The notes under the pieces: model-generated
Database searches by the model: none
The model's input: only the letters and a program-made list of their open reading frames with translations
What the model was told of the DNA's origin: nothing
Shown here: positions 7,179 through 19,100 of the stretch, one piece after another
How the letters are laid out: each line of letters starts with the position of its first letter
Position numbering within the stretch: the first letter of the stretch is position 1
Assembly (NCBI GenBank): GCA_947462335.1
Contig: OX381704.1
Coordinates: 45,946,942 to 46,010,941 of the forward strand
Reading direction: 5' to 3'
DNA length: 64,000 nucleotides
DNA from: Harmothoe impar
Taxonomy: Eukaryota; Annelida; Polychaeta; Phyllodocida; Polynoidae
Made by a program: the position numbers and the translations under genes

Positions 7179-10100
7179 ATGGAGAGCTTTAAAAAAATCT
7201 ATTTTGCACCTTCGGTTTCAGGACTGGTGGCTGTAGCAGCGGCTGTTGTTTGCCTCCTGGTGTCTAATGGGGCTCCGGTGACGTCACAAGAGGAAGGTAA
7301 GCTGACATCCGGGTCCTCAGAGTGGAGGCAAAAGACACCATCCACCTTTTTAAGATTAGAATTGAATTAAAGATTAGTTAGAAAATGGCACTGTGATCGC
7401 ATGATTATTTAGGAATCAGGAAGATTAAGTCAATGAATGTCATGTTAGTAGGTCTGCATGAATGTGCATGACAAGGAGAAGGATAGTTCTCATGTGCCTA
7501 TGACTGTGAGCAGCCAAGCAGAAAGGATAGTCCCCGCGGGATTAGTTCCGATTTTAGCCACCAGGGGGCGCCACTATGGCCTACAATGAAAGAATTAGGC
7601 TAAAAATTGCTCTTGGGTACTTTTTTCTGGAGAATTCAATAGGATTACATAAAACATTCCGTTTTTGGTAAAAAGCTTCTATATTTGGAAGGTAAAAGGA
7701 ACGTTTTAAAGCCTAAATGGGTTTGTTTGTTGATATGTGTTGCCATGGAAACATGATTTTTATTCCAAATAGAGGAAATTAAGACATAAATTGATAGAAT
7801 GATTTCTGAGGATTGCCAATAGTGAAAACAAAATAAAATTACCATTCCTAGATCAAATTTTATGACTTCAAGAATAAAAATGTATCATAAATGTCTAATT
7901 AGGCCTATCATAGATAATGCTAATTAAATAGGGATATCTTGGAAAATATGAGACATAGAGCTTATTTGGATTTTGGAAAGGGTGATGCCCACACATATTC
8001 ATGAAGCCATATCTCAAAAACTAGAAATAATATCTTCTAGTGTAATATATCACTGGAAAGCTTATGACATCAATTTCAAAGTTGGCCTTTTCCTCGGACT
8101 ACCCTTTTCCCTTGCCTGTACATTTGTGTATAATATGCACATGATATACTTATTACGCCATATTCATTGTTGTTACGCAAGGTTTGCAACTATACTAGGG
8201 AGTACCGCAAGCCTAAGATTTCGGTTATACTTGGTCAGGATTATGGAGGGTATGCAATGTGCAACACAGTCCCAGACAGATTATGATGTGCTAGCGTTTC
8301 AGTTTCTTTTGAAATGTAGATATACACTGGGTCGATGGATCAATATGGTGGACATGTGGTTGAACTAATATGAAGACAGATGTAACGTGAACGGTGGCAG
8401 TTATTACACGATAACATTCTTGGATGTGAGTCTGGAGGGCCTTACATATAGAACGATAAAGACAAATCCAGTCAACAGCGACACAAACCTTTACAATTGC
8501 AAATAAAGATAATTTTGTACGACAATTTCGTTCTTTTGCCATCCTAACGATAATGTCGCACACCAACGATGTAAAACAAAGACAAAAACCTTTACAATTA
8601 GGGTATTCTGCGAATATATCGTACTTTTCTGTCGCTCTTTTTTGTCGTTGTAGGGCCTATTTTCGACTGCGCTAAATGGGTCCGACCATCACAAATTTCG
8701 TCAGCGACAAAAGCATTTTACGTTCACACCACTGTGCATTTGACCTTCTTCTCTCCTTCCCCTCCTTCCCCAACCTTTTTTCTTGTTTCCCTTTGTTCGT
8801 CCTTCCTCCTATCTCATTTTCGGACCCATTTTTTTTCACTTTTTCATCCGTCACCTCGATTTTCCTATTATTTTTCTCGTTATGTCAACAACGACGATTA
8901 TTGTCTATAGCGACGATTATCCTCAGCGACTATTTATCTACTTCCGGCCGACCTTTGCCCTACTTTGAGTGCGAGCACATGGAAAATGGCGGCGCAGGTG
9001 CAGGCGCGGGATCGGCTCGGCCGATTGCGCAAGGAATACCTGCCCCGCCATGATCCTGTGGCTAAGTGGAGGGAGGAGAAATTCATTGCTAAGTACAGGC
9101 TGACTCGTGACAGGGTCCGAATTTTAGGCAGGGAGTTTGCACAGTCAGGATATAGCAGAAACCAAGGGACCAAGGTCGGTGGCGGACTGTCCCATGTACA
9201 ACAGGTGAGATTTTTTCCCTATCACATAGACTACAGTAGTGTTATTTAGAGCCTCATCCCCTTCCCTCTATCCCTTCATCTTTCCTGTCCTTGCTTAGCT
9301 TTCCATTACTTAAATATATTTATATACAGCTTACCTACTATGCTTTGCATTTGACAAATTCATGTACAGTTCACTTTTTGCAATTTATGGCAATTTGTCT
9401 ATATTATCGACATTATTTTTTCCTTTTGCAGATGTCCCTTGCCATACGATACTTTGCCACGGGGGCAGGCTTCCACACGATTGCGGAAACACAGCAGGTT
9501 ACCATCGCAACAGTCAGTCGGTGTGTGGAGGACGTCTCCAACTTTTTCTACGAGAACTCAAACCGTTGGATTCGTTGGCCGCATACTGCCGAAGCCAAGT
9601 TCAATGTGGCGAAGGACTTCCACGCCAAACACAAGAAGAAACCTCTCCTTCTCGGCTGCATAGATGGGACACACATACAACTTGTCTCCCCCCGTAGAGA
9701 CAGGGAACATGTGTTCATGAATCGAAAGGGGTTCTACTCGTTGAACGTTATGGTGATTATTTGGTCATTTATATCTTCCTAATTTAGGGCGTAGCATCCA
9801 CGAAAAATACCTAACATTTAACCGTCATTTTTCCCTTTTTTTCAATAATGTGCTCCTCCCACTGCAGGTCGTTTGTGATGCCCAGAACCTAATCACTCAC
9901 ATTGACCCCGGTTGGGCAGGGTCCGCAGCAGACAGTTACATCTTCGACACCAGTCTGCTTAAGGAGGATGCTGAATCCGGGACATGGGGCGATTACTTCC
10001 TGCTCGGAGACAGCGGGTAAGGTACTTTTTGGTAGTACTTCCATTTCATGCACCTTTTAACATCTTTTTTGGTAGTACTTCCTTTTTGTGCAATTTTTGT

Positions 10101-16100: not shown

Positions 16101-19100
16101 CTGGTCACGGAGGAGGACGGAGTCCTAAGTAATATTGAAACTTGCGGTGTAGAAGAACTTAGATGTGCTTGGGCAGCCTGCCTCTCAGCAAGAAGCCTCC
16201 GCTGCTGCTCGTTGTACGCGGTCCACACCTCTTGTTGGCTCAGACCAGGCGGCAGGGAGGGCACCTCGTTTGTCCCACATGGTCGCGACGTTTCAGGAGG
16301 TTGCGAAGACCCTTCATGAGGGGGGGCGGCAGGGCGGCGAGTTTGCGAAGACCTTTCTTCTGCGGCAGGGCGTCGCGCTTGCGAAGAGCTGTCATCGGCT
16401 GCAGAGCGGCGAGGTTGCGAAGAGCTGTCATCGGCGGCAGAGCGGCGACGTTGCGAAGACCTTTCATCTGCGGCAGGGCGGCGCGGTTGCAAAGAGCTTC
16501 CATCGGCTGCAGGGCGGCGCGCTCGCGAAGACCTTTCTTCAGGGGGGGCGGCGGAGGATTTTTTGCGAAAACCTGTAGCATACATAAAGGAGACAAGATG
16601 AGAATCCACCCAAAAAGTGAGAATGTGAAATACTTAGAAATATAGTGTTTGTAACACTCTTTGTGATACTCTTTGATATACAACAATACATACAGTACGA
16701 AAAGGTGTAGATGGTACATTTTATAAAAATTTGAATTTCGTGGTACATTTTATAACAATTTGAAATAAAAAAAGAACAAGACGGATATGCAATTTAACAA
16801 AACACACCTGCAATTTTTTCCGTCCCCGCGAACCGGAGGGCCAGCACTTCTGACTCCCTAAGTTTCATTTCCTCAGGAATGTACGCCCCCTTGTCCACGT
16901 AGTCCAGAAGAAGCTGTGTGTTCTGTTTGAGCATGATAAGGCAAGATACATGATCAGTGTGGCGAGAGAGGGAAAAATAGAAAAGATATATTTTGTTGTG
17001 TTGTTATCCACATGGGTTCAATTAAATATTATTTAATGGAAAGAACAGCGCTACATGTAATATTGTTTAAGAAGGAAAAAGAAAAACCTGAAATATAAAT
17101 ATAGAAGGGATGCTTACTTTTTCCCCACATTTGTTCGGGAAGTCCCGGAACTTAGTCCGTATTTCCTTTTCTGAGCGACCCGCCGTTGTGGTTACAACGT
17201 TCACAGCGTCTGAAGATAAATATTTGCGGACATTACGTAAAGTGAATGTAAACTTTGTAAGACCGTAAAAGTTAATGTAAACTTTGTAAGACCAAATGAA
17301 TACAGTGTATACTTTTACTTCGTATTTGTATCACCAGCGAATATTACAGTACAAGTATCCTCGGAAGTAATTGGTATATTCTTTACAAGTACATCAGTTA
17401 CGAAGAAATTAATAATTACCCAGGAGACGAGAAAAAGCCGCATCTCTGGCCCGCTTGTTCTTGCGAGTTTGTCGCTCCCTGAGAATGCCCTTGTCCGCTA
17501 ACGCAGACCTCATGAGCGCACATCTCTCCTCCTCCGACCAGTACGGGTGGCGGATGGCCTTACGGCCCTGCACTGGATCGCTGGCTACTGCATGGGGGCT
17601 AACAGGCTCAACCAGCCGCTTTTTCTTAGGGGCAGCGCGGGGTTTCTGCTTCCGAGGAGGCAGTTGTGTGGACGGGGCCTGCTCCGCCACGGGCTCAATG
17701 TCCTCGTCATCGTCATTCAATCGACTGTGATGTCTATTACTCTTAGCGGACCGTCCCGACCTATGTGAGGAGTTAGACGTGTCGGCCAAGCGACCTTCAG
17801 AGCGGCGGGACGTGTCCCGGTCAGAGTCGCTGGAGCTGGAGCGGGGGGCTGGACGTTTCTGCTTCTTGCGACGGGTGTGTGTCGCATGACTGGACTCCTC
17901 GTCGTCCTCGTCTGCCGACCGGGTAGGAGGGAGCCACGACCGATCGCGGTCAGAGTCGTCGATGACAGATGCCTCCTGCGACTCCTCCTCCTCCTCCTCC
18001 TCCTCAGCCTCATACTCGTCGTCCTCCTCACCTTCCCAGTCACCCGCCACGGTTCCCTCTTTACTTCCTGACATCTGGGAGAAGATAAAAGTATGACATT
18101 TTATTTCTATGTACAAAGAAAAAATGAGAGCAATGTTCGTAATACTTCCTTAAATATACTTCCAAAATATTTTACGTAAATTTTTTTTTGTAAATACAAA
18201 TTTGTAAACCCCAATTTTTTTCAGCAATTTTTGGGAGGAAGTACTACCAAAAATGAGGCAATAATGATATTGCCCCAAAAATGGTGGGGAAGTAAAAAGG
18301 AAGTAAGGAAGTAAAATATCGCAATTTTTTTCAGCAATTTTTGGGAGGAAGTACTACCAAAAATGAGGGATTAATGATATTGCCCCAAAAATGGTGGGGA
18401 AGTGAAAAGGAAGTAAGGAAGTAAAATATCGCCTAAAATTGCATGGACAATGCCGCAAAGGGGGGTTGAAAAGTAAAATAAAGGGCAGGGGGAGGAGAGA
18501 GAGAAAGAAAGGGGTGATAGAAGTGGAGAAAATGTTTGGAAATGCTGGGGGAATGCAGGACAGTGTCATACTACTGCATTGCGTACATATCCTTTGGATT
18601 CCCGCCATTACGGGCGACATATTCACTTATTATCGCTCGGCAGCGGAGTGAGTTTGGGGCCGAAACAGTGAAAGTAGATATTAACATGCACTGAATTATG
18701 TGGCCGACGATACATAATGACATAATGTACAATGTAACATAGGACAATAAAGAGAGGAATGGTGTAAAACATCAATTTTACCGTTTTTCGAGTTCGCCGA
18801 CACTTGTTCGGAACAACGATGAAAATGTACCGGAAGCTACCTCGGTCGGTGTTTTGGGTGACGTCACTTCCGGTTTACCCTGTACCCTGCCCTTTTTCCA
18901 TCGTTGTTAGGCTGAACAAAGAGCGACGAAAAAACAACGACAAAGATGAAAACAGAACGAACGAGTGCTTAACGATGATCGTTGTTTTAAACAACGATGA
19001 AAAATGTAAAGGAATTAAAGATTATTCGTTGTTCCTTATTGTCGTACAGCATGAACGACAATATAATAATCGTTCTATATGTAAGGCCCTCCTGGCCGTC

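Follow-up and report, generated by a model that had tools for sequence, protein, structure and literature searches.

A probable four-gene, recently mobile PIF/Harbinger family in the genome of the polychaete Harmothoe impar

A transposon-like unit at positions 8435-19091 of a 64,000-nucleotide stretch of the Harmothoe impar genome (contig OX381704.1, positions 45,946,942 to 46,010,941 of the forward strand; hereafter “the window”) very probably belongs to a PIF/Harbinger family of many copies that moved recently; this family is CWG-duplicating and NuwaI-like, has grown to about 10.7 kb, and carries four co-inherited genes. G1 encodes the predicted transposase, G2 and G4 are Myb/SANT-like, and G3 has a signal-peptide-like start.

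The unit is bounded by a perfect 23-bp terminal inverted repeat (TIR) at 8435-8457 on the plus strand and 19069-19091 on the minus strand, with 0.00 such repeats expected from 100 shuffles. The flanking letters form a target-site duplication (TSD), CTG, at 8432-8434 and 19092-19094. The genes alternate in strand (G1 and G3 on the plus strand, G2 and G4 on the minus strand) and contain 13 GT-AG introns in total, all in frame; the splice sites were chosen by hand, and the exact exon borders of G1-G4 are models. A preliminary description of the window had reported the perfect inverted ends, the CTG duplication, and four multi-exon frames that splice in frame, all of which were borne out, but it also called the element intact, which does not hold since a 151-bp deletion beheads the G3 of this copy.

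The left subterminal region (8435-8985) carries ACAACGA/AACGAT-type motifs common to the right end, and its counterpart with ACAACGA-type motifs spans 18500-19091. G1 (8986-10929, 364 aa) consists of five exons (8986-9204, 9432-9752, 9868-10016, 10440-10574, and 10659-10929), and a cluster of the palindromic motif GGWAGTACTWCC lies in its third intron (10027-10352). The five exons of G2 (11183-12724, minus strand, 261 aa) are located at 12724-12704, 12412-12058, 11877-11789, 11640-11523, and 11385-11183. G3 (13088-14063, plus strand) has three exons, of which the second and third are 13557-13787 and 13984-14063, and is broken by the 151 bp missing at 13100/13101. G4 (15155-18074, minus strand, 759 aa) has four exons (18074-17420, 17209-17118, 16922-16808, and 16572-15155) and a long low-complexity tail, and two more GGWAGTACTWCC motifs are found upstream of it (18237-18362). 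A length-maximising gene finder recovered all three G3 exons at two of three settings, four of the five G2 exons at two settings, three of the four G4 exons at one setting, and just one or two of the five G1 exons, the low recovery of G1 arising because the finder prefers longer exons. The possibility that elements of the same family, each with its own ends, are nested inside was considered and rejected: apart from the two ends, no stretch of the window matches the TIR with fewer than 8 mismatches in 23, so that the separate inverted ends around the Myb-like genes or G3, which the preliminary description had named as a possible refutation, are absent for this family. No other end pair surrounds G2, G3, or G4 among the 25 longest of the 80 inverted pairs in the window.

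G1 is assigned as the transposase on the basis of its match to DDE_Tnp_4 (PF13359, E = 6e-35) and its residues D151, D202, and E264, which are invariant in a 12-sequence alignment with HARBI1-like proteins. The best of 545 protein matches to G1 has 46% identity over 71% of its length, and among the 120 matches listed, those with a named organism are all from animals. A search of the PDB with G1 gave matches at E about 0.4 to a kinetochore protein, which were taken as noise.

The genome-wide search covered the window's own assembly (1.51 Gb in 736 contigs) and found 93 matches to the TIR with at most three mismatches, compared to 0 for a control pattern. Pairing by hand placed 84 of these matches in 42 elements and left nine unpaired. 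The pairs comprise 26 elements of 10.1-11.7 kb, four of 12-23 kb, and 12 shorter ones. The gene counts in the pairs cover G3 and the Myb part of G4: the G3 exons and the Myb part of G4 are both inside 29 of the 42 pairs, including all 26 full-size ones, as read off the match positions of the TIR, G3, and G4, with 150 of 202 candidates scored in the genome-wide count of G4. A search of the assembly with DDE_Tnp_4 produced at least 155 matches, from many Harbinger-like families.

Ten further full-size copies, chosen in contig order, were retrieved in full and share a common layout with the window copy, at a pairwise identity of 97.4-99.8% over aligned columns; indels among the full-size copies include a 444-bp deletion in copy C2b. 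Counting the window copy, the frames are intact in 9 of 11 copies for G1, 9 of 11 for G2 (including that of C4a, which is in frame but two codons shorter), and 7 of 11 for G4. Two older copies, D19 and D4, which have the TIR variant GAGGCCC, hold the four genes in the same order. The preliminary description had suggested looking for other copies with the four genes together, and they were found, whole or damaged, in 10 of 10 further full copies and both diverged ones, so that all 13 fully read copies have the complete set. The similarity of these dispersed insertions points to recent movement and suggests that the whole gene set was carried around this genome recently. As a separate observation, a pair of copies seems to be arranged head to tail at C4:24456981-24477427, where two plus ends and one minus end are present.

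The missing 151 bp of G3 are present in all ten further copies, in which the gene starts at the ATG equivalent to 13088, encodes 237-239 aa, and is intact in every case. The start at 13096 in the window copy is accordingly an accident of the junction left by the deletion. Judged on the window alone, G3 is a marginal prediction, as a spliced frame of this length occurred in 3 of 132 control windows and 3 of 200 shuffles. The codon-usage test gave z = -0.2 for G3 and z = 0.56 for the confirmed transposase G1, which was likewise not told from shuffles. The protein starts with MATCY, a hydrophobic run, and ATASGS, or close variants, in nine of the ten further copies, and in C2b this stretch ends in ATASAS; the first residues differ in the G3 of D19, D4, and locus L121 and are still strongly hydrophobic. 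After its hydrophobic start, the G3 of copy C10 has six cysteines and two N-X-T sites. A hydrophobic start, cysteines, and N-X-T sites can be marks of a secreted glycoprotein. G3 has no family match in Pfam, a four-sequence profile of it has no relative in the PDB, and truncated G3 gave a PDB match at E 0.59 to a Wnt inhibitor, taken as noise; G2 and G3 have no match in NCBIfam, and scans of viral contigs with G1, G3, and G4 gave nothing informative. AlphaFold models of two single G3 exons, computed without an alignment, have a mean pLDDT (predicted local distance difference test) of 67 and 42. An origin of G3 as a transposase remnant was rejected (hhalign probability 0.1%).

Comparison between subfamilies indicates that purifying selection acts on all four genes. 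With gapped codons skipped, the ratio of non-synonymous to synonymous divergence (dN/dS) of C10 against D19/D4 was 0.23/0.18 for G1, 0.27/0.32 for G2, 0.20/0.20 for G3, and 0.36/0.35 for G4, and the bootstrap upper limits were below 1 for all four genes (for G3, 0.20 with a 95% interval of 0.14-0.29). Among the recent copies alone, in tests that count distinct variants rather than events on a tree, synonymous changes are in excess in G4 (p = 1e-5), G3 (p = 0.005, ten copies without the window), and G1 (p = 0.012). The selection results combined make it very likely that G3 is a real gene under selection. Relatives of G3 also occur elsewhere in the assembly. Locus L121 (C13:20535300-20544060) has three in tandem, two of them with a signal-peptide-like start, beside a lone TIR of the family, and no G1, G2, or G4 match was found in the single 8.8-kb stretch read there. 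Further relatives with 49-82% identity lie on C19 near 43.9M and at 53.45-53.49M with no family TIR of at most three mismatches nearby; these could possibly be host progenitors or belong to another element.

The synonymous divergence (dS) is uneven along the element. Between C10 and D19, it is 0.062 for G1, 0.097 for G2, 0.69 for G3 (a value that may be inflated, as the G3 of D19 is frame-broken), and 0.224 for G4, and between C10 and C5 it is 0.008, 0.006, 0.044, and 0.039, respectively. The unbroken G3 of C2b displays the same trend (dS 0.094, compared to 0.024 for G1). The G3 exons, with 141 changes in 234 codons, differ more than the G3 introns, which are 87.8% identical. The deeper history of the right half, G3 above all, relative to the left half suggests exchange between subfamilies.

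A second family was found through G4, with at least 31 matches of 45-47% identity over query residues 61-122. Its one locus that was read, on C12, has G1-like, G2-like, and G4-like genes in the same order and orientation and no G3 match at E ≤ 1. Candidate ends of this locus are 10.3 kb apart, agree at 16 of 20 positions, and have CWG outside, and the reversed control had none. Since G1, G2, and G4 are present at this locus and G3 is not, the two-Myb layout is probably older than the arrival of G3, unless the second family lost G3.

These data also bear on whether the element could be a two-gene Harbinger with chance-inserted passengers, namely a captured host gene (G3) and the Myb gene of a second element. 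The high dS of G3 in the D19 comparison would fit a separately moving cassette, the second-family locus lacks G3, and a search that needs shared five-residue words drew 43 candidates for truncated G3 from 5.8 billion proteins, none of them a relative at E ≤ 0.01. On the other hand, the four genes stay together in every fully read copy, G3 is intact in all ten further copies and appears to be under purifying selection, no internal end pair of the family is present, and the two-Myb layout recurs at the locus of a distant family. A passenger origin is therefore largely refuted for G4 and, as a whole, is quite improbable compared to a co-inherited set of four genes.

The two Myb/SANT-like genes are probably old duplicates of each other, because three consecutive introns fall at matching places. 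The intron phases are 0,1,0,1 in G2 and 1,0,1 in G4, and the corresponding introns have phases 1,0,1 and a spacing of 30/39 codons in G2 and 31/38 in G4, a pattern that arose in 12 of 200,000 random patterns under a simple model. The segment between the last two introns was aligned equally well by 25 of 5000 shuffles. G4 matches Myb_DNA-bind_5 above the Pfam cut-off (4.4e-5), and a protein search with G2 yielded 562 candidates, none at E ≤ 0.01.

All 84 flanks of the 42 pairs read CWG. The middle W base is the same on both sides in 28 pairs and different in 14, and decay is unlikely to be the cause of the mixed W bases because the outer C and G never differ. The differing bases could be taken to mean that the flanks are not a target duplication at all, with the element inserting between CW and WG without duplication. 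Independent W bases would in that case differ in one half of the insertions, compared to the 14 of 42 observed (p = 0.044 on 42 pairs; p = 0.06 on 41 pairs, before the right end of L092 was redrawn). Copy C14 sits in a repeat, and six of 40 listed related sites were retrieved as paralogous empty sites; five of them show one CTG in place of the two at the filled site and the sixth has CGG, with no length difference. The duplication is thus 3 bp there, a zero-length duplication is rejected, and insertion without duplication is hardly credible. Empty sites with a single CTG, which the preliminary description had proposed to look for, were in this way found for one insertion.

For the related mPing element, excision through staggered cuts that leave the TSD as 5' overhangs has been proposed (PMC4561436). 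By analogy, the Harmothoe element may be excised by staggered cuts in CWG and may carry its 3-nt flanks along, pairing them with the target's own CWG gap, after which a W:W mismatch would be left to random repair. According to our own algebra, the share of pairs with differing W bases settles at one third under such a carried-overhang model, which was devised after the data (14 of 42) were seen. The differing W bases hint that donor overhangs travel along with the element.

The distribution of the repeat motifs speaks for a single unit and not for a composite. ACAACGA occurs eight times in the 1.14 kb of ends, once in the 9.5-kb interior, and three times in the 53 kb of flanks in the window, and the sites near the ends are kept, with eight in each of 11 copies, seven in D19, and five in D4. 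All eight exact occurrences of GGWAGTACTWCC in the window lie within the element, in G1 intron 3 and upstream of G4, and the motif is kept in all 13 copies at the same two places with five to nine sites. In the proposed division of labor, G1 would carry out the cut-and-paste reaction. The G2 Myb protein may bind the subterminal ACAACGA-type repeats and bring G1 to the ends, a role proposed because the Myb-like protein of Harbinger3_DR is reported to act in this manner. G4 may have taken a second job, perhaps binding GGWAGTACTWCC in the transposase intron and before its own gene and thereby setting expression.

G3 would enter the secretory pathway and have its effect beyond the nucleus, directed at the host cell or at neighboring cells. 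Alternatively, G3 may be a defense decoy, secreted or resident in the endoplasmic reticulum and derived from a host gene family, that hinders host defense rather than acting in transposition. The signal-peptide-like start, the six further cysteines, and the two N-X-T sites are in line with such a decoy, as is the tandem arrangement of three relatives at L121, which resembles arms-race families, whereas G3 matches nothing in Pfam or the PDB and no host progenitor was identified; we regard the decoy as possible, though on the unlikely side. Our fuller proposal combines a G3 that is selected, secreted, probably glycosylated, and needed for spread through the population with an intermediate that carries donor CWG overhangs, and it is rather improbable. 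If true, it would describe a cut-and-paste transposon with an extracellular phase, for example one altering how germ cells or neighboring cells receive the element or its products, and one third of the duplications would end up with mixed A/T through the pairing of donor overhangs with the target CWG.

Several points weigh against the interpretation of the element as a copy of a recently mobile family with four co-inherited genes. The case is built from sequence throughout, and the roles of G3, G4, and the palindromic GGWAGTACTWCC are ones that we infer. In the window copy, the G3 frame from 13088 hits a stop at codon 20. The signal-peptide-like start was recognized in three G3 relatives by a hydropathy peak within the first 17 residues together with general rules. 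Several genes of D19 and D4 are broken, including G3 in both, and some of the changes counted in these genes postdate their decay, and misalignment may affect some columns. When the comparison is confined to the recent copies, G2 displays no constraint, with 3 synonymous and 12 non-synonymous variants (p = 0.79). The Myb assignment of G2 relies on a match to Myb_DNA-bind_5 below the Pfam cut-off (0.015), although Myb models are its best matches, and its relationship to G4 finds little help in the protein sequences: BLASTP detected no useful similarity between the two, and 44 of 2000 shuffles aligned equally well over the whole shared part. Finally, the one locus of the second family that was read has neither ACAACGA nor GGWAGTACTWCC.

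The window contains other repetitive features. About 300 bp to the left of the Harbinger element, a 3.94-kb unit (4183-8122) has long inverted ends (pieces of 217 and 262 nt, 94% complementary), a longest stop-free frame of 123 codons, and no clear TSD. A 493-bp unit at 38164-38656 resembles a miniature inverted-repeat transposable element, with 72-nt inverted ends and the 9-bp duplication AGCTATTAC on both sides, and further short units with inverted ends are located at 1449-2042, 35185-35520, and 45068-45305. On the minus strand, an open frame of 2683 aa at 55949-64000 runs off the window and includes 21-bp tandem repeats and a 39-bp repeat array (56970-57345); it has no Pfam match above the cut-off.

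DNA transposons are usually pictured as minimal, purely nuclear machines. A signal-peptide-like gene that is very likely selected and that travels with a transposase and two Myb-like genes makes non-nuclear functions of cut-and-paste elements testable, and the G3-less family in the same genome, with G1, G2, and G4 at the one locus read, provides a natural contrast. Should the share of one third for mixed CWG duplications be borne out, evidence on the structure of the Harbinger insertion intermediate could be drawn from ordinary genome data.

Among known systems, the element has the hallmarks of PIF/Harbinger (PHIS superfamily) transposons, namely a DDE_Tnp_4-type transposase with its catalytic triad, a Myb/SANT gene, and TIRs with a 3-bp TSD. 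The hallmarks of ISL2EU are lacking, as no YqaJ exonuclease or THAP match to Pfam was found in the four proteins at E ≤ 1. Harbinger3_DR and the PIF/Pong/mPing elements, which likewise combine a transposase with a Myb-like partner and subterminal motifs, are smaller than the window element. In the accessible parts of the reports, staggered cuts at the 3-bp TSD are proposed for these systems, which have one Myb-like gene and no mention of a G3-like gene (PMC9710019, PMC4561436). The Myb-like protein of the zebrafish element Harbinger3_DR recognizes a subterminal motif of 9 bp, and its interaction with the transposase serves nuclear location (PMC9710019).

The closest likeness is to NuwaI, a group within the PHIS superfamily of animal PIF/Harbinger-like elements (PMC4482050). 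The TSD of this group, 5'-CWG-3', is found in 84 of 84 flanks, though W differs within 14 of 42 pairs, and the 23-bp TIR (12-61 bp in NuwaI), the DDE transposase, and the Myb/SANT gene agree as well. In contrast, NuwaI elements mostly have two open reading frames and a mean length of about 4462 bp (roughly 4.5 kb), whereas the present element has four genes and about 10.7 kb, which exceeds that mean 2.4-fold (26 of the 42 pairs span 10.1-11.7 kb), and its TIR starts with GAG instead of the usual GGG. In its TSD, the length of its TIR, and its core genes, the family thus resembles the NuwaI group, a placement made by these features.

A search for a published Harbinger element carrying either a second Myb gene or a gene for a secreted protein found none, with subscription papers and Repbase reports mostly outside its scope. 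The preliminary description had proposed an enlarged, possibly still active Harbinger lineage with additional machinery, and the copies and empty sites support such a lineage with recent activity, but Harbinger-type elements with accessory genes are already on record: HarbingerS carries a SET methyltransferase, and PHISTA carries TET/JBP and a third protein (PMC12730594). According to that report, these extras, found in oomycetes and fungi, include chromatin- or DNA-modifying enzymes, and PHISTA has TA TSDs and no Myb gene (PMC12730594). The window element, by comparison, has a further Myb gene and a gene resembling those of secreted proteins as its extras. Carrying several genes is therefore not in itself new for a Harbinger element, and what is new here, relative to the literature available to us, is the G3 gene.

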